A program made the translations under genes and the position numbers. Positions 9,750-62,698 of a DNA stretch of 64,000 bases are shown one piece after another. Source of the stretch: Elusimicrobia bacterium GWA2_51_34. GTDB taxonomy: Bacteria; Elusimicrobiota; Elusimicrobia; Elusimicrobiales; UBA9959. Below the pieces are notes generated by a model. It did no database searches. It saw only the letters and a program-made list of their open reading frames with translations, and was not told where the DNA came from. Positions within the stretch are counted from its first letter, which is position 1, and each line of letters starts with the position of its first letter. The DNA is taken from positions 65,016 through 129,015 of the forward strand of contig MGTS01000042.1 in NCBI GenBank assembly GCA_001799565.1, read 5' to 3'.

Positions 9750-10253
9750 ATGAACCCTTTGGGCCTCATACGCCAGTTTGTAAAAGGCATCACCACCGAA
9801 ACCGAGCCGCCGCAGATAGCCGCGGCGGTGGCGCTTGGTTTTCTTATCGGTCTGCTGCCTAAAGCCACGCTGACAGCGCAACTGCTGCTGATACTGGTAA
9901 TGGCCCTGCGCGTAAATTTCCCCATGGCCCTGCTGACCATTTTCGCCACGATCCTGGTCAACCCGGTTTTTGACCGCATAACCGATCCTTTGGGCTACGC
10001 TTTCCTTACGGCGCCTGCTCTGGCTCCGCTTTGGACTAAACTTTATAATATGCCGGTGCTGCCCTGGACCGGTTTCAACAACACTGTGCTTCTGGGCGGC
10101 CTGATATTCGGCCTTGTAATGTTCGTGCCGGTTTATATTTTAGCGAAGAAGGGCGCGGTGGTTTATAACGAGCGGTTCAAGATTAAAGTCATGAACTCTA
10201 AACTCGTGAAAGGATTAAAAAGCTCCTGGCTGATGGATTGGTATTTTAAATGA
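9750..10253 (+). CDS. TIGR03546/DUF2062-family membrane protein
   Basis: A 167-residue protein with the DUF2062-like N-terminal segment EPPQIAAAVALGFLIGLLP and NFPMALLTIFATILVNPVFD, then two further hydrophobic spans (about residues 110-135), and a short basic C-terminal tail. It matches my knowledge of TIGR03546, an uncharacterised family found in outer-membrane bacteria as a two-gene pair with TIGR03545. Here its partner (10728) lies downstream but is separated by an inserted four-helix-bundle gene. The TGA stop at 10251-10253 runs straight into the left arm of that insertion. Function unknown; a role in envelope maintenance is a guess. Confidence 0.75.
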   Translation: MNPLGLIRQFVKGITTETEPPQIAAAVALGFLIGLLPKATLTAQLLLILVMALRVNFPMALLTIFATILVNPVFDRITDPLGYAFLTAPALAPLWTKLYNMPVLPWTGFNNTVLLGGLIFGLVMFVPVYILAKKGAVVYNERFKIKVMNSKLVKGLKSSWLMDWYFK

Positions 10254-10722
10254 GTCTGGAGTCTTGGCGTCTGGGAGTCTAGGAGTCGGGGAGTCAAGGT
10301 AGCATGACTATAACGCGATTTGAGGATATTCTGGCTTGGCAAAAAGCGAGAGAATTGGCCATCGCAGTATATAAGCTTTCAAGAAATGGAGATTTTGCCA
10401 AAGATTTTGATTTACGCGGTCAAATACGCCGGGCAGCCGTATCCGCAATGTCCAATATAGCCGAAGGCTATGCGCGACGCAGTGACAAGGAATTCGCTAA
10501 TTTTTTAAACATCGCACATGGGTCACTCGGCGAGGTGCAAAGTCAGCTTTATCTGGCCACAGACCTAGACTATATAGGCACAGCAGATTTCGCAAAACTA
10601 TACGCGCTTGCAGATGAAGCAAGCCGTCTGTCTGCAAAATTTGCCAAGTTTCTTCATAGTACGAAAAATAATATCAGAGTCCCAAACTCCAAGACTCCCG
10701 GACGCTAGACTCTGAGACTCTT
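10252..10722 (+). mobile_element. Candidate mobile element: four-helix-bundle gene between GGAGTCT inverted arms
   Basis: The left arm (10252-10294) is a degenerate tandem array of GGAGTCT-like words on the plus strand. The right arm (10676-10722) carries the complementary AGACTCC-type words. The only gene inside is the four-helix-bundle CDS, and its last ten codons and stop lie within the right arm. The element separates the TIGR03546 and TIGR03545 genes, which are normally adjacent, so it is best read as an insertion. The same word forms gene-less hairpins at 28908-29012 and 62578-62698. No transposase or target duplication is visible, so mobility is inferred from structure alone. Confidence 0.5.
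10304..10708 (+). CDS. Four-helix bundle protein (S23/IVP family)
   Basis: A 134-residue protein of the family first seen in intervening sequences of 23S rRNA genes and related in fold to the Avd accessory protein of diversity-generating retroelements. Hallmarks are FEDILAWQKARELAIAVYKL, LRGQIRRAAVSAMSNIAEGY and FLNIAHGSLGEVQSQLYLA. These small basic helical bundles assemble as oligomers and may bind nucleic acid. It is not in an rRNA gene and no reverse transcriptase is nearby. It begins ten bases after the left arm of a repeat hairpin, and its C-terminus RVPNSKTPGR is encoded by the right arm, so the element has remodelled the end of the protein. Its biological role is unknown. Confidence 0.88.
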   Translation: MTITRFEDILAWQKARELAIAVYKLSRNGDFAKDFDLRGQIRRAAVSAMSNIAEGYARRSDKEFANFLNIAHGSLGEVQSQLYLATDLDYIGTADFAKLYALADEASRLSAKFAKFLHSTKNNIRVPNSKTPGR

Positions 10723-10727
10723 TAATT

Positions 10728-12497
10728 ATGCGCTGGTCTTATATCATACCCCGGTTTACCCTGTTGGCCCTTGTGTGGGCTTTCTTTTATTTCGCCTTTG
10801 ACCCCATATTGAAGTGGGCAATGATAAAGGGTCTGGAAAAAGGCGCCAAGGCCAAAGTGGAAATTGCGGACGTAAAAACCTCTTTTCTGCCTCCGGCGCT
10901 GCGCATAAGCGCATTGGCAGTAGCCGATTCAAAAGAGGAGTATAAGAACCTCTGTGAATTTTCCGCGCTGGATCTTAAAATAGAAGGCAGGCCGCTGCTG
11001 GAAAAGAAATTCATAATAGACAAGGCTTCTCTTTCCGGCCTGAAGTTCGGCACGGTCCGCAAGACCTCCGGGAAGTTATTCCTGGCAAAGGAAGAAACAC
11101 CCGAGTTTGTAAAAGAACTGGGCGACTCCTCTAAAAATTTCGCCCTGGACAGGGCCGCCGACATAAAAACCGACGCCATAAGTTCCTATAAAGTTGACCC
11201 GGATTCCCTGGAGTCGGTAAAACTTGCCAAAGAGCTGGAACAGAAATACAACGAGGACTACAAGGCTCTTTCCGCAAAAGCGGATTTTCAGAAATATCAG
11301 GCCCGCATGGACGCCCTTAAGGCGGATTATGAAAAAGCCAAAGGCGAAAGCAACCCGCTGAAAAAGGCGGGGGACTACGCCAAAGCGGGCAAAGAACTGA
11401 AAAAGCTTTCGGAAGATTTCAAGAAAGACCGCGCGGAAATAGAGAAAACCCTGGCCGACGCTAAAAACTCAATAAAAGCTATTGAGGAAGCACGCAGAAG
11501 AGATACATCCTCCGTAATGGCAAAACTTAAACTGCCGTCTCTTGATAAAGCCTCCCTTGCCAGAATGCTTGCCGGCCCGGTTGTGGCGGCAAATACCGAA
11601 AAAGCCTGGAAATGGCTGGCCATCGCGCGCAAATATATGCCGCAAAGCGCCAACGCAAAAGCGCTCGCCAACGAGGCGGCACGGGGCCGCGTAGTGCATT
11701 TTCCCAGGGAAAAAACATGGCCGTCTTTCCTTATTAAAGAAATGTCGCTTTCCGGCGAATTGGGCCTTGAAGAGCCCCTGGACTATAACGGCAGTATTGA
11801 AGGCATAACCACCCAGCCCAAACTCTACGGCAAGCCGCTGACCGCGGAGATAAAAGGCCGCAAGGGAGCCCGGGCGCTTTATTTCTCAGCCCGTGCCGAC
11901 GCCTCAGGGGACGCCCTTAAAACAAAGACCTCCCTGAAATATTCCGGCATGGCCGTTAACGGCTTTAAACTAGGCTCGGAAAATTCCATTTCCGTGGATG
12001 TCAAAGGCACAGGGGCTTTTAAAGGGGATTTTACCACTGAGGGCACGGCGCTCCGGGGCTTTGCCGTGTTTAACATTACCGGCGCTTCCTTCCTGCCTAA
12101 AGCCGACGCGGTGAAAGCCGCCCCGGTAAAAGACGCGCTGCTTGGCGCCTTTAATTCTCTGAACTCCGCTTCTATAGAAGCGGATATCTCCGGCACTCTT
12201 ACGTCCCCGAAATTCTCTGTTGATACCGATCTGGCCAAAGCCCTTTCTGCCGCGTTCTCCAAAACCCTGGGCTCCGAAGTGAAAAAAGCCGAAGAAGAAG
12301 CCGCTAAAAAAGTTGACGCGGCCCTTGAGCCTTACCGTAAAAAACTGGACTCGCTGACCTCCGCGAAAGAAACCGAGCTTAAAGAAAAGCTGGGCGCGGG
12401 AGAAAAGTCCATAGGTTCATTCAGCGACGGCATGCTGAAAAATCTCAAAGAAAAAGCCGCTCCCGGCGGCCTTAAACTGCCGAAATTCAAATTATAA
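10728..12497 (+). CDS. TIGR03545-family envelope protein (AsmA-like)
   Basis: A 589-residue protein with one N-terminal membrane helix (about residues 8-27). This is followed by a domain with AsmA/TamB-like strands (VEIADVKTSFLPPALRISAL), a Lys/Glu-rich helical coiled-coil stretch at roughly 165-265, and a C-terminal beta-rich region. The C-terminus is again charged and helical. It fits TIGR03545, an uncharacterised family of diderm bacteria typically paired with TIGR03546. AsmA-like proteins bridge the periplasm for lipid transport, so an envelope role is plausible but unproven. Its start is only 20 bases after the inserted four-helix-bundle gene, so that insertion may affect its translation or transcription. 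Confidence 0.75.
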   Translation: MRWSYIIPRFTLLALVWAFFYFAFDPILKWAMIKGLEKGAKAKVEIADVKTSFLPPALRISALAVADSKEEYKNLCEFSALDLKIEGRPLLEKKFIIDKASLSGLKFGTVRKTSGKLFLAKEETPEFVKELGDSSKNFALDRAADIKTDAISSYKVDPDSLESVKLAKELEQKYNEDYKALSAKADFQKYQARMDALKADYEKAKGESNPLKKAGDYAKAGKELKKLSEDFKKDRAEIEKTLADAKNSIKAIEEARRRDTSSVMAKLKLPSLDKASLARMLAGPVVAANTEKAWKWLAIARKYMPQSANAKALANEAARGRVVHFPREKTWPSFLIKEMSLSGELGLEEPLDYNGSIEGITTQPKLYGKPLTAEIKGRKGARALYFSARADASGDALKTKTSLKYSGMAVNGFKLGSENSISVDVKGTGAFKGDFTTEGTALRGFAVFNITGASFLPKADAVKAAPVKDALLGAFNSLNSASIEADISGTLTSPKFSVDTDLAKALSAAFSKTLGSEVKKAEEEAAKKVDAALEPYRKKLDSLTSAKETELKEKLGAGEKSIGSFSDGMLKNLKEKAAPGGLKLPKFKL

Positions 12498-17003: not shown

Positions 17004-17926
17004 GTACGCGCAATTCGCCGCGCATCCTCCTGCACGAGGTCGGCCCGCGCGACGGCCTGCAAGTGGAGAAGGCAGTAGTCCCAATTGAAAAGAAAGAGGC
17101 CTGGCTCCGGGACCTGATGGCATCCGGCCTGGACATCATCCAGGTAGGCTCTTTCGTCCATCCTGAAAAAGTCCCGCAAATGGCGGATACGGACGAGCTC
17201 TTTCGCCGGCTCACCGCCGGAAAGGTTTCCTCCGCCATCCTTTCGGGGCTGGCGCTTAATGAGAAAGGGCTGGAGCGGGGGCTTGCCTGCGGAGTTGAGA
17301 TGTTCTGTATGGGCGCTTCGGCCAGCGAGACCCACAGCCGAAAGAACACCGGCATGGGAACCGAAGAATCCACGAAGCGCATTATAAGCGCGGCCAAAAC
17401 CGCCGCAGCCGCCGGCAAAAAAGTGCAGGTCTCGGTTCAATCCGCGTTCGGCTGCGGCTTTGAAGGGCCTATTTCCGAAGAGCGCGTGCTGAATATGGTT
17501 CGCGCATACCTGGAAGCGGGCCTGCGAAATATCAGTCTGGCCGATACCGCGGGACACGCCAATCCGGCGCAGGTAGAGCGCCTTTTCGGCGCTGTTTTAA
17601 AAATGGACAAAGACATTGAATGCGCCTGCCACTTCCATAACACCTACGGGCTGGGAATGGCGAACATGTTTGCGGCTATGCGCGCCGGAGTGGTTTCTTT
17701 TGAAACTTCCTTCGCGGGGCTAGGCGGCTGCCCCTTCACAAAGGTTGCCGCCGGAAACGTGGCCACCGAAGATTTCGCGCACGCCCTTCAAAGGGAGAGG
17801 CTGCGCGTGGACGTGAACCTGGACCGTCTTATAGCCGTTGCCCGCGACGCGGCCGCGCATTTCGGCCGAGATCTGCAGGGTTTTGTGTATAAGACCGGGG
17901 CCATTGGGAAAGTGGCGAGTGGCTAG
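17000..17926 (+). CDS. HMG-CoA lyase-type DRE-TIM metallolyase
   Basis: A 308-residue TIM-barrel lyase. LHEVGPRDGLQ is the DRE motif that binds the divalent metal. CHFHNTYGLGMAN gives the HxH metal ligands. GLGGCPFTKVAAGNVATED contains the catalytic Cys of HMG-CoA lyases. Such enzymes cleave 3-hydroxy-3-methylglutaryl-CoA to acetyl-CoA and acetoacetate; the adjacent CoA-transferase AB could then activate acetoacetate. A related 3-hydroxyacyl-CoA is possible. ATG 17000 (ATGA overlap) is preferred over ATG 16976. The last codons (KVASG) and the TAG stop fall inside the arm of a repeat hairpin, so the native C-terminus may have been altered. Confidence 0.82.
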   Translation: MSTRNSPRILLHEVGPRDGLQVEKAVVPIEKKEAWLRDLMASGLDIIQVGSFVHPEKVPQMADTDELFRRLTAGKVSSAILSGLALNEKGLERGLACGVEMFCMGASASETHSRKNTGMGTEESTKRIISAAKTAAAAGKKVQVSVQSAFGCGFEGPISEERVLNMVRAYLEAGLRNISLADTAGHANPAQVERLFGAVLKMDKDIECACHFHNTYGLGMANMFAAMRAGVVSFETSFAGLGGCPFTKVAAGNVATEDFAHALQRERLRVDVNLDRLIAVARDAAAHFGRDLQGFVYKTGAIGKVASG

Positions 17927-18005
17927 TGATAAGTGGTCAGAATATTGAAGTGAACAAAACTCTTACTGACTCGCCACTCGCCACTAATCACCAGCCACTG
18001 ACTTT
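17909..18005. repeat. Word hairpin, AGTGGCGAGTGGC family
   Basis: The left arm (17909-17940) is made of GTGGCGA/GTGGCTA/GTGATAA words. The right arm (17968-18005) is its near-complement, with AGTGGCTAGTGAT matching the reverse complement of ATCACCAGCCACT save one base. The left arm supplies the stop codon of the lyase gene. The right arm ends just before the ribosome-binding site AAGGAG of the next gene. Confidence 0.75.
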
Positions 18006-26943: not shown

Positions 26944-27066
26944 TGATTACAGTGATAGTAGAACGATTACAGTGATAAAACAATAGTTTTGGAAATTTGA
27001 TATTCCTTATTATTGTATCCATACTCTTCCCCATCGCTGTAATCTCTCTTTAATCACTGTAATCAT
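26944..27066. repeat. Word hairpin, GATTACAGTGAT family
   Basis: Two direct GATTACAGTGATA words (26945 and 26966 region) are complementary to ATCGCTGTAATC and ATCACTGTAATC (27033-27064) across a 50-base A/T-rich loop. The right arm ends six bases before the ribosome-binding site AAGGAG of the alpha subunit gene. The ATCGCTGTAATCTCT sequence recurs as isolated arms near 54803 and 55636. Confidence 0.75.
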
Positions 27067-28171: not shown

Positions 28172-28934
28172 AAGGCCGGAATCCCTGCTGGACGTAAAAA
28201 TGCATTACTGTCCGGGCTGCGGACACGGCACTATACACCGCCTTATAGCCGAAGCGATGGATGAACTGGGCATACGCGGCCGCGCCATAGGCATCGCGCC
28301 GGTCGGCTGCGCGGTGTTTGCCGATGTTTATTTCAACTGCGACATGATACAGGGCGCGCACGGGCGCGGCCCGGCCGAAGCCACGGGCTTAAAGCGCGCT
28401 AAACCAGAGACTATAGTCTTTTCCTACCAGGGAGACGGCGATCTTGCCTCCATCGGCATGGCGGAAATAGTGCACGCCGCCATCCGTTCGGAGAATATCA
28501 CGGTTATCTTTGTAAACAACGCCATATACGGCATGACCGGCGGACAGATGGCGCCCACCACCCTTATAGGGCAGAAAGCCACCACCTGCGTGGAAGGACG
28601 CACCGCCAAACAGGCCGGCTACCCCATAAAAATGTGCGAATTGCTTGCTACTGTAGAAGGCGCGGCTTACCTTGAACGAACCAGCGTTCACAATGTGCCG
28701 GGAGTGATAAAGACCAAAGCCGCCATAAAGAAAGCTTTCCAGAACCAGATGGACTGCAAAGGTTTCTCAATGGTGGAGATACTGTCCATGTGCCCCACCA
28801 ACTGGGGCACCCGGCTTGACAATCCGTCGGAGGCCACAAAGTACGTGGCTGAAGGCATGCTGCCGGTGTTCCCGCTGGGAGTGTATAAGAATGCGGCAAA
28901 AACAGTCGGGGAGTCTAGGAGTCTGGGAGTCTAG
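28155..28934 (+). CDS. 2-oxoacid:ferredoxin oxidoreductase, beta (TPP-binding) subunit
   Basis: A 259-residue TPP-binding subunit. MHYCPGCGHG has the conserved cysteines of the small subunit, and QGDGDLASIGMAE is the TPP diphosphate/Mg loop (GDGD). FVNNAIYGMTGGQMAPTT completes the cofactor site. It pairs with the alpha subunit, whose 3' end it overlaps. The last seven codons (ESRSLGV) and the TAG stop are encoded by the GGGAGTCT-word repeat element that follows, so the natural C-terminus was probably replaced by insertion of that element. Active-site residues are all far upstream and intact. Confidence 0.9.
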   Translation: MQLLNKRPESLLDVKMHYCPGCGHGTIHRLIAEAMDELGIRGRAIGIAPVGCAVFADVYFNCDMIQGAHGRGPAEATGLKRAKPETIVFSYQGDGDLASIGMAEIVHAAIRSENITVIFVNNAIYGMTGGQMAPTTLIGQKATTCVEGRTAKQAGYPIKMCELLATVEGAAYLERTSVHNVPGVIKTKAAIKKAFQNQMDCKGFSMVEILSMCPTNWGTRLDNPSEATKYVAEGMLPVFPLGVYKNAAKTVGESRSLGV

Positions 28935-29012
28935 GAGTCTGGGAGTCGGGGAGTCGGGGAGTCGGGGATTCTTTACTCCAGGACTCCGGGACCCCAAGAC
29001 TCGCGACTCTCT
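28908..29012. repeat. Word hairpin, GGGAGTCT subfamily
   Basis: Left arm 28908-28970: at least seven GGGAGTCT/AGGAGTCT/GGGAGTCG words. Right arm 28976-29012: ACTCCAGGACTCCGGGACC and related complements ending GACTCTC. The word is the same as in the element carrying the four-helix-bundle gene (10252-10722) and in 62578-62698. The left arm provides the stop codon of the beta subunit. The gamma subunit ribosome-binding site lies directly after the right arm. Confidence 0.8.
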
Positions 29013-29031
29013 ACAAATGGAGGCTTTACTT

Positions 29032-30875: not shown

Positions 30876-30974
30876 GCAGACAGTAGTCAGAATACAGTAG
30901 ACAGTAGACTGCGACTAAAAAAGGCAACAGTGTAAATGCAAAACTCCGACTACTGTATTCTGTCTACTGACTTC
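30876..30974. repeat. Word hairpin, ACAGTAGACAGTAG family
   Basis: Words AGACAGTAGTCAGAATACAG (30878 on) are complementary to CCGACTACTGTATTCTGTCT (30947 on), across an A-rich loop. It lies between two minus-strand genes, just upstream of the flavoprotein start. Confidence 0.78.
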
Positions 30975-31979: not shown

Positions 31980-32090
31980 TCAGGGTCAAGGTTCAATGGT
32001 TCAGGGTTCAACGGTTCACGGTTATTTTTTCCACGATCTTCTTGTGTTCCCTGATTTTCAACCGTTGAACCGCTGAACTGTGAACCTGCG
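31980..32090. repeat. Word hairpin, GGTTCAA family
   Basis: GTCAAGGTTCAATGGTTCAG and further GGTTCAACGGTTCACGG words (31983-32020) are complementary to CAACCGTTGAACCGCTGAAC and TGTGAACC (32058-32085), across a T-rich loop. It lies between the FAD oxidase and the Fe-S gene, both on the minus strand. Confidence 0.78.
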
Positions 32091-35591: not shown

Positions 35592-35812
35592 TCACAAGAC
35601 ACAAGTCACAGGTCACAAGTAACAGCCGGAAGAAACAAGTGCGGAAAAATGATTTTTTAAAACTTTAATTATTGCAGACTGAAACCAAAAAACTGTTATA
35701 TGACTTCTATGAAAATTTGTAGTTTGCCATTACTTGTGCTCTGTGACTTGCAACTTGAAGCTGTTGTTTTTTCCGGCTTGTGACTTGTGACATGTGACTT
35801 GAGACTATTATT
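35589..35812. repeat. Word hairpin (long), GTCACAAG family
   Basis: CTAGTCACAAGACACAAGTC and further GGTCACAAGTAAC words start within the stop codon of exporter subunit 1. The right arm (35724-35808) has GTGACTTGCAACTTGAAG and CTTGTGACTTGTGACATGTG. An about 80-base A/T-rich loop separates them. This is the longest hairpin of the set and occupies the whole gap between the two exporter genes. Confidence 0.78.
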
Positions 35813-47094: not shown

Positions 47095-47212
47095 CTGCGC
47101 CCGCCATAAGCTGTAAGCCGTATGCTTTTTTAGGAGTTTCCTTACAGGCCTATGGCTTATGGCGGGCGCACGCCCTTATGGCCTATGGCGATAATAGCGT
47201 TTCACGCTATTA
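47095..47212. repeat. Word hairpin with terminal palindrome, GCCATAAGC subfamily (copy P)
   Basis: Nested arms: GGGCGCTGCGCCCGCCATAA, then GCTGTAAGCCGTATGC, loop TTTTTTAGGAGTTTCCTT, then ACAGGCCTATGGCTTATGGC. It ends with GATAATAGCG and CGCTATTATC (47191-47212) just beside the malF stop. The loop matches copies O and Q in the complementary sense. Confidence 0.82.
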
Positions 47213-48414: not shown

Positions 48415-48561
48415 ATCTGCCTTAAGCCATATGCTTTAGGCCATAAACGATAAGGAAACTTTTAAAAAAAGCTTATTGCAAACGTTCTGCCTATAGCCTA
48501 TGGCTTATGGCAATAGCCGTATCTAAAACTTATGGCAATCATAGCGCGAAGCGCTATGATT
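48415..48561. repeat. Word hairpin with terminal palindrome, GCCATAAGC subfamily (copy Q)
   Basis: TTAAGCCATATGCTTTAGGC and CCATAAACGATAAGG face GCCTATAGCCTATGGCTTAT. The minus-strand loop is TTTTTTTAAAAGTTTCCTTA. It ends with AATCATAGCGC and GCGCTATGATT (48537-48561), beside the stop of the binding-protein gene. Together with O and P it occupies all three gaps between malE, malF, malG and malK. Confidence 0.82.
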
Positions 48562-49795: not shown

Positions 49796-49827
49796 AGGTA
49801 CCCCTGACCCATAGTCGTTAAAAGGGC

Positions 49828-49921
49828 AGAGGTGGAAGTCAGATAACAGATGCCAGAAGTCAGATCGGCACTGGATTTCCTCAAATCTGATTTCTGTCGT
49901 CTGACTTCTGACCTCTGATTG
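49828..49921. repeat. Word hairpin, GAAGTCAGAT family
   Basis: GGAAGTCAGATAACAGATGC and CAGAAGTCAGATCGG words face TCTGATTTCTGTCGTCTGAC and TTCTGACCTCTGATT. It lies directly upstream of the binding-protein gene, so it would be in its 5' leader. Confidence 0.72.
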
Positions 49922-62561: not shown

Positions 62562-62577
62562 GAACTATTCCTCCGTT

Positions 62578-62698
62578 GTCAGTCTGAGAGTCTGAGAGTC
62601 TAAGAGTCTGGGAGTCTGGGAGTCTGAAAACCGAACTCTCGAATCTTCAGTTCTTGTCTTGACTCTTTGACGCTAAGACTCCCGACTCTACGACTTTT
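62578..62698. repeat. Word hairpin, GGGAGTCT subfamily
   Basis: CAGTCTGAGAGTCTGAGAGT and GTCTGGGAGTCTGGGAGTCT face CTTGACTCTTTGACGCTAAG and ACTCCCGACTCTACGAC. It is the third member of the subfamily that includes the four-helix-bundle gene element. It lies between tig and clpP. Confidence 0.8.

Follow-up and report, generated by a model that had tools for sequence, protein, structure and literature searches.

A four-helix-bundle (4HB) gene stands between TIGR03546 and TIGR03545, two operon partners, in an Elusimicrobia genome, and inverted arrays of a short word enclose it. Do gene and arms together form a mobile or self-spreading unit, as a sequence-only reading of this DNA had proposed? We consider it probable that they do, and that this is one gene-bearing member of a widespread class of mobile hairpin elements, in which one PF05635 gene lies between inverted arrays of 7-8-nt words. 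The unit and its flanks have the following parts, in coordinates of the window (the whole stretch of 64,000 nucleotides that was analysed).

9750..10253, + strand: TIGR03546, upstream operon partner and left flank of the insertion; stop at 10251-10253
10251..10299, + strand: 5' array, word GGAGTCTN, about six copies, the G-rich arm; its first word contains the TIGR03546 stop
10304..10708, + strand: 4HB gene, 134 aa, PF05635 / TIGR02436
10676..10722, + strand: 3' array, the 5' array in inverted form; includes the end of the 4HB gene (last codons and stop)
10728..12497, + strand: TIGR03545, downstream operon partner and right flank of the insertion

The window unit and its counterparts in Elusimicrobia

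Domain matches on both flanking genes bear out that the unit parts TIGR03546 from TIGR03545. The open reading frame at 10304-10708 matches PF05635 (E 1.6e-35) and TIGR02436 (E 9.8e-34), and these matches agree, together with the letters of the 5' array at 10251-10299 (TGAGTCTG GAGTCTTG GCGTCTGG GAGTCTAG GAGTCGGG GAGTCA), with the claim that GGAGTCT-word arms flank an S23/IVP-type 4HB gene. The word is 8 nt long and the array has period 8. Its first copy supplies the TGA stop of TIGR03546, and the 4HB stop, TAG at 10706-10708, falls inside the right arm (10676-10722) with the last codons of the gene, as had been read. The window contains 13 copies of GGAGTCT where 3.25 +/- 1.67 are expected, and 0/100 shuffles reach that count. 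The flank score of the unit, which compares the upstream flank with the reverse complement of the downstream flank, is 28, a value matched or exceeded by 0.5% of the 1216 control genes taken from related genomes, and in a predicted RNA fold the two arms pair (z = -7.35). Over the whole genome a three-word GGAGTCT pattern gives 65 matches at about 20 loci, and the reversed control gives 0. The observation made in the window is confirmed as real, beyond chance and extending past the window. Among 13 scanned GGAGTCT array loci of the source genome, the one with a 4HB gene is the window unit. Domain searches detected no known transposase domain and no reverse transcriptase inside it, the 4HB gene being the sole gene between the arms, and the PADLOC models of anti-phage defence gave no match for this gene.

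The source genome (2.63 Mb, 97.8% complete) has eight TIGR02436 matches corresponding to seven genes, one of them frameshifted. Inverted word arrays enclose 7/7 of these genes, each with its own word (AGTAGGT, AGAGTCT, CTACGGAAGG, GGAGTCTN, a longer AGGCAAAG-type word, AAGTCACA and CCGGTAT). Nearly all 4HB genes of related genomes likewise lie between inverted arrays, and the median flank score of 32 Elusimicrobia units is 22, against 12 for the 1216 genes. The exception, L025, has the sequence signature of the Avd gene of a diversity-generating retroelement. Here (G021:C51), as at a further locus, L334, a divergent 4HB gene without word arrays adjoins an RVT_1 domain and repeat-like sequence, and by its sequence each of the two is such an Avd gene. 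The sequence-only reading had named two findings that would speak against a specific link. Arms around unrelated genes were looked for in 1.6 Mb of related DNA and not found: the window unit was the only clean gene-enclosing array pair, and the others proved to be repeats rich in GC or ATATCC, or pairs of complete hairpins close together. Nor did the relatives hold the gene at the same locus without arms, the gene in G006 having arms of the same word. Two units in different genera, L006 of the source genome and L020, encode proteins 83% identical and share the word AAGTCACA between unrelated neighbours, and their sequence similarity stops at the arms, which suggests that gene and word travel as one unit. 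Upstream of the L006 gene, within about 260 nt, a stretch of about 60 nt (TTGTGACCTGTGACTTGTG...ACAGAAATTCTGCTA) stands in tandem about four times.

Gene-less hairpins occur elsewhere in the window (no strand is assigned to them).

17907..17985: hairpin, word AGTGGCG, by inverted-word-array detection
28904..29013: hairpin, word GGAGTCT, the same as in the window unit, by inverted-word-array detection
31999..32080: hairpin, word GGTTCAA, by inverted-word-array detection
35597..35807: hairpin, word AAGTCACA, common to the 4HB unit G000:C42:175.5k and L020 of another genus
48418..48512: hairpin, word CATAAGC/TATAGGC, shared with the 4HB unit L034, which belongs to another genus
49827..49920: hairpin, word AGAAGTC, by inverted-word-array detection
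62576..62687: hairpin, word GAGTCTGA (GGAGTCT family), by inverted-word-array detection

The detector searches for inverted word arrays with a short loop, and order-3 shuffles give it almost no false match. More inverted word-like repeats, below its threshold, lie at 26944-27065, 30878-30972 and 47096-47170 of the window and are probably older gene-less hairpins. We determined hairpin densities in sampled genome stretches, leaving GC-triplet and ATATCC arrays out of the counts as other repeats. Eight Elusimicrobia genomes with 4HB genes have 47 hairpins in 868 kb (0 to 20 per 100 kb), whereas eight without standard 4HB genes have 1 in 738 kb (genome-level Mann-Whitney U test, p=0.001). G016 departs from this trend: it has two 4HB genes, yet 123 kb of its DNA contained no hairpin. 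Hairpin words also resemble the 4HB words of their own genome more closely than the 4HB words found in other genomes (permutation p=0.002). The proposal that the gene-less hairpins derive from the unit holds for some, in which gene loss is seen directly, while others may be separate insertions; hairpins that carry the word of a resident unit at further sites look like non-autonomous insertions. Long ATATCCGTATATCC-type repeat arrays with about 1 kb spacing, at 15765-19429 of L243 (G002) and 3039-6240 of L273 (G013), are of a different family.

The TIGR03546-TIGR03545 junction itself is empty, with a short spacer, in the genomes G005, G013, G016, G021, G023 and G024 of other genera, among others, and also in G002, which belongs to the source genus. 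In G006 it holds the same-word 4HB unit, and gene-less hairpins of other words lie there in G001 (GCTGAAGT), G010 (GGTAACC) and G015 (GCGTATA), with a one-armed hairpin in G003. The comparison proposed by the earlier reading thus returned both presence and absence of the unit, plus a hairpin state, and these states indicate that the junction has been occupied repeatedly, by different families. Relatives with an empty junction are too diverged for the ends of the insertion to be aligned in search of a target duplication at the window unit.

Arms and words across bacteria

A scan of species-representative genomes yielded 80 4HB loci from about 20 phyla, 78 of which were scored for their flanks. 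Their median score is 23, whereas 142 neighbouring ORFs have a median of 12 and mismatched flanks one of 11 (p=8e-27), so that inverted arrays are enriched at 4HB genes relative to other genes, a comparison that had also been called for. The 99th percentile of mismatched pairs is exceeded by 50/78 loci and not by the other 28, and control genes within 4HB-bearing loci score like random flank pairs. Arms are present at 10/11 units of one Chryseobacterium and at 10/10 inspected plasmid units. One 4HB locus, L102, is in the MAG of a Methanophagales archaeon, where the upstream flank is too short for an arm score. None of 50,697 phage records contained a 4HB match, and carriage of the units by phages is accordingly unsupported.

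The words differ from locus to locus and share a common style. Of 71 arms, 51 have a period of 7 or 14 and 13 a period of 8. C is scarce in the 5' arm (11%) and G in the 3' arm, and the triplets most strongly enriched include AGT and TGA. All three frames contain stops in 38/71 5' arms; since the words repeat TAG and TGA, a gene entered from either side usually terminates at once, which would soften the damage of insertion. The 3' arms are less closed by stops than the 5' arms. At L010, L016 and L023 the 3' arm codes part of the signal peptide of the next gene (L023: ...LSSLIPHPSSLLSAA), and mobile arrays may here have been turned into secretion signals. Co-orientation with both neighbours is seen in 68/86 units, compared with 48% of control genes, and counter-examples exist. 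We dropped the polarity of the arms relative to transcription, since the two strands of an inverted repeat give the same reading; the inward G-rich orientation alone is meaningful.

When all pairs at non-orthologous loci are compared, similarity between proteins correlates with similarity between words, although weakly (Mantel rho 0.08, p 0.016), and hence words change faster than proteins. A one-to-one code between protein and word is weakly supported by this value and was not adopted. A strict stem with base-by-base covariation was rejected, since copy-by-copy identity of the arms is 0.823 and shared words alone would give 0.807. At one site, likewise, an arm fits its own partner no better (14.6) than its sister's (14.2). 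The arms therefore match by word and not by register, which fits arrays of binding sites better than a stem paired base by base.

Filled, empty and exchanged sites

The 4HB units on plasmids of Nostoc, Calothrix, Anabaena and Trichormus are bounded by inverted heptamer arrays. At site T of conjugative plasmids of Nostocales, Nostoc linckia NIES-25 and Fremyella NIES-3275 are empty (...AAAAAGTAATTAACAA), while Trichormus variabilis and Scytonema NIES-4073 are filled by a unit of about 430 nt lying between ...AAAAAGTAAT and GTAATTAACAA. Filled and empty flanks are 97-98% identical, and the unit is accompanied by a 5 bp target duplication, GTAAT, this being the only site where a duplication is clear. 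Nostoc C052 has a decayed copy at the same position. On other plasmids site J1 is filled by the same word and protein family as the site T unit, with an apparent duplication, TTCTA, that is less certain and could be word-like sequence; the next junction, J2, holds another element in pNsp_c only. A TraM site carries a 4HB unit on two plasmids, a gene-less hairpin with related words on one and nothing on others. In Nostoc edaphicum a unit lies antisense inside a plasmid nrd operon, and one relative is without it.

In Chryseobacterium the exchange of states between species can be followed at three operon junctions. At MoxR-DUF58, 70 species were read; some have a clean spacer of 4-6 nt, others a complete unit, a unit with a gene remnant, or a gene-less hairpin of another word. 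Intact 4HB genes at this site have a dN/dS of 0.11, which indicates that the protein is kept functional. Between groES and groEL two 4HB types and two types of gene-less hairpin swap between species, and each of the four states is represented among species with groEL flanks 97-98% identical to the query. The queA-rlmN junction is occupied by a 4HB unit of one word in some species and by a gene-less hairpin in others; this hairpin repeats the word of the MoxR-site unit or is one of two other kinds, one of which carries the word of the groES-site hairpin. As side observations, a 4HB unit, a word hairpin or a remnant splits groES from groEL in 30/30 Chryseobacterium species read (L357, L377-L406), and at L359 (Chryseobacterium G041) gene-less hairpin copies of about 190 nt form direct repeats on both sides of the 4HB gene.

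Filled and empty sites, a 5-bp duplication, decayed copies and the same word at unrelated loci uphold the claim that gene and arms are a mobile or self-spreading unit. Mobility is supported by such comparison of sites rather than by direct movement, and homologous exchange can explain some of the swaps.

A possible mechanism, its alternatives and known systems

In the reading that we favour, each family of elements carries its own word and inserts mostly at operon-internal junctions, usually along transcription, and copies lose the gene and persist as gene-less hairpins. As a mechanism we propose that the 4HB protein would bind the repeated word in single-stranded DNA or RNA, gather the two ends and pass the hairpin to a host enzyme whose gene lies outside the unit; it would also drive the spread of the gene-less hairpins. 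Relatives of the protein with solved structures are 2GSC and 2RLD, and a passage of PMC4990558, citing Lin 2006, describes Xcc0516 (2GSC) as a homopentamer of four-helix bundles. The pairing of a ring protein with a run of equal words suggests multivalent binding.

A host enzyme is invoked because the unit contains no catalytic domain and neither of two candidate movers accounts for the distribution of hairpins. A resident HUH transposase (Y1, RAYT-type) could move units and hairpins as single-stranded DNA, with the 4HB gene as cargo or accessory: Y1_Tnp genes are found in nearly all genomes of the family, and hairpin ends suit the enzymes of IS200/IS605 and REP/RAYT. However, Y1 is equally present in hairpin-free genomes (four genes in G005, four in G022, two in G013), word arrays enclose 0/10 of the Y1 loci examined, and the 5 bp duplication of site T is at odds with insertion of the IS200/IS605 type, which leaves none; as a mover this transposase is unsupported, and we regard it as unlikely. 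Spread through an RNA intermediate, with a reverse transcriptase acting in trans by analogy with the Avd of diversity-generating retroelements, would agree with the homology of Avd to PF05635 (PMC10053308) and with co-directional insertion in operons. Yet a domain search of the 97.8% complete source genome found no RVT_1 domain, in spite of its seven units and many hairpins, and RVT_1 is also absent from G006, G010 and G012. A resident reverse transcriptase is thus unsupported as the mover, and among the alternatives this analogy appears to us the least probable of all.

Two further explanations dispense with transposition. If cassettes were exchanged only by homologous recombination of conserved flanks, and arrays arose by local slippage, the swaps between species at the fixed junctions groES-groEL, MoxR-DUF58 and queA-rlmN would be explained, and slippage can indeed lengthen arrays of short words. 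It does not by itself yield one word in two inverted arms, however, and the presence of one word at many unrelated loci per genome (about 20 for GGAGTCT), of the same gene and word at non-orthologous loci, and of a clean insertion with duplication at site T make this account very unlikely. The arrays could instead be regulatory or RNA-processing hairpins of the host (transcript stability, RNase III sites, translational coupling), the 4HB protein a host RNA-binding regulator and the units immobile. The prevailing co-orientation (68/86 units), the purifying selection on the 4HB gene and the stability or coupling roles proposed for the cyanobacterial STRR hairpins (PMC2670836) would all suit such a function, but if the units were immobile, close relatives should not differ at one junction between empty, filled, decayed and swapped states, nor should site T show a target duplication, and the unit antisense to the Nostoc nrd operon and the near absence of hairpins where 4HB genes are missing add to what makes it quite unlikely.

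Mobile 4HB elements, as we read them, share traits with several known systems. The rRNA intervening sequences (IVSs) with an S23p ORF of Leptospira and Coxiella have in common with the window unit the protein family, pairing inverted repeats round the gene and a sporadic spread, and a mobile origin is proposed for them in a passage of PMC4990558 that cites Ralph and McClelland 1993. They sit, however, in a 23S rRNA helix and have one 28-bp stem of unique sequence, whereas the window unit lies between the protein genes TIGR03546 and TIGR03545 and 4HB units have arrays of 7-8-nt words, each with its own word. Unlike the IVSs, 4HB units are accompanied by gene-less word hairpins scattered through the genome. 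The cyanobacterial STRR sequences, 7-bp tandem repeats that form intergenic hairpins of unknown function at operon junctions (hupS-hupL, hoxW and others; PMC2670836), are like the 4HB class heptamer arrays at operon junctions, although the window word itself has period 8; they were described without a partner gene, for which the 4HB gene is here a linked candidate driver. REP/REPIN with RAYT likewise combine a gene-bearing partner with many small gene-less hairpins, but the autonomous copy has a Y1 transposase, while the 4HB unit is without Y1 and its words are tandem and variable. The REP/RAYT-like pairing without a transposase that had been anticipated is borne out by gene-less same-word hairpins. 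Avd has a homologous four-helix-bundle fold, but diversity-generating retroelements also comprise a reverse transcriptase and TR/VR, none of which is near the 4HB units. With insertion sequences and MITEs the class shares a target duplication (at one site, in cyanobacterial relatives), but there is no transposase in the unit. The tandem heptanucleotides of Geobacter metallireducens and the TAACTGA repeats of Beggiatoaceae are multicopy intergenic 7-nt arrays (PMC2700814, PMC4679880), described as regulatory elements or direct repeats and without a 4HB link; these families may belong to the 4HB class, and the survey includes a Geobacter unit, L070, with the word GGAACTC/GGGACTC.

In the full-text literature, a scope that leaves out preprints and most subscription journals, we found no paper linking 4HB genes with word arrays; the element class appears to be new, an earlier description being possible given that scope. 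We lean slightly towards a broader reading, in which PF05635 genes mark a class of mobile elements that extends across the bacteria, lacks a transposase and ends in inverted arrays of short words that evolve fast, with rRNA IVSs and cyanobacterial STRR hairpins as special or degenerate cases and a pentameric word-reading protein as the mobility factor. PF05635 ('23S rRNA-intervening sequence protein', 'four helix bundle protein') is a common family for which structures have been solved and, to our knowledge, no function has been established; the heptamer hairpins of cyanobacteria and other bacteria have been unexplained for decades. If both are parts of one mobile element, each gains a testable role at once, and experiments could address a form of DNA mobility that uses neither a recognised transposase nor a recognised reverse transcriptase. 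Function should be read with caution into 4HB genes inside operons. For instance, '23S rRNA IVP' genes have been listed as CRISPR-linked (PMC10910872), and these may be hitch-hikers, to be compared with the unit L410 of Anabaena sp. 90 pANA02. At 2134-2960 of that locus a type I-D CRISPR operon has a 4HB unit between its cas6 and cas4 genes, the right array of the unit codes the N-terminus of Cas4, and a plasmid with a 99% identical cas6 has a different insert at the same position.
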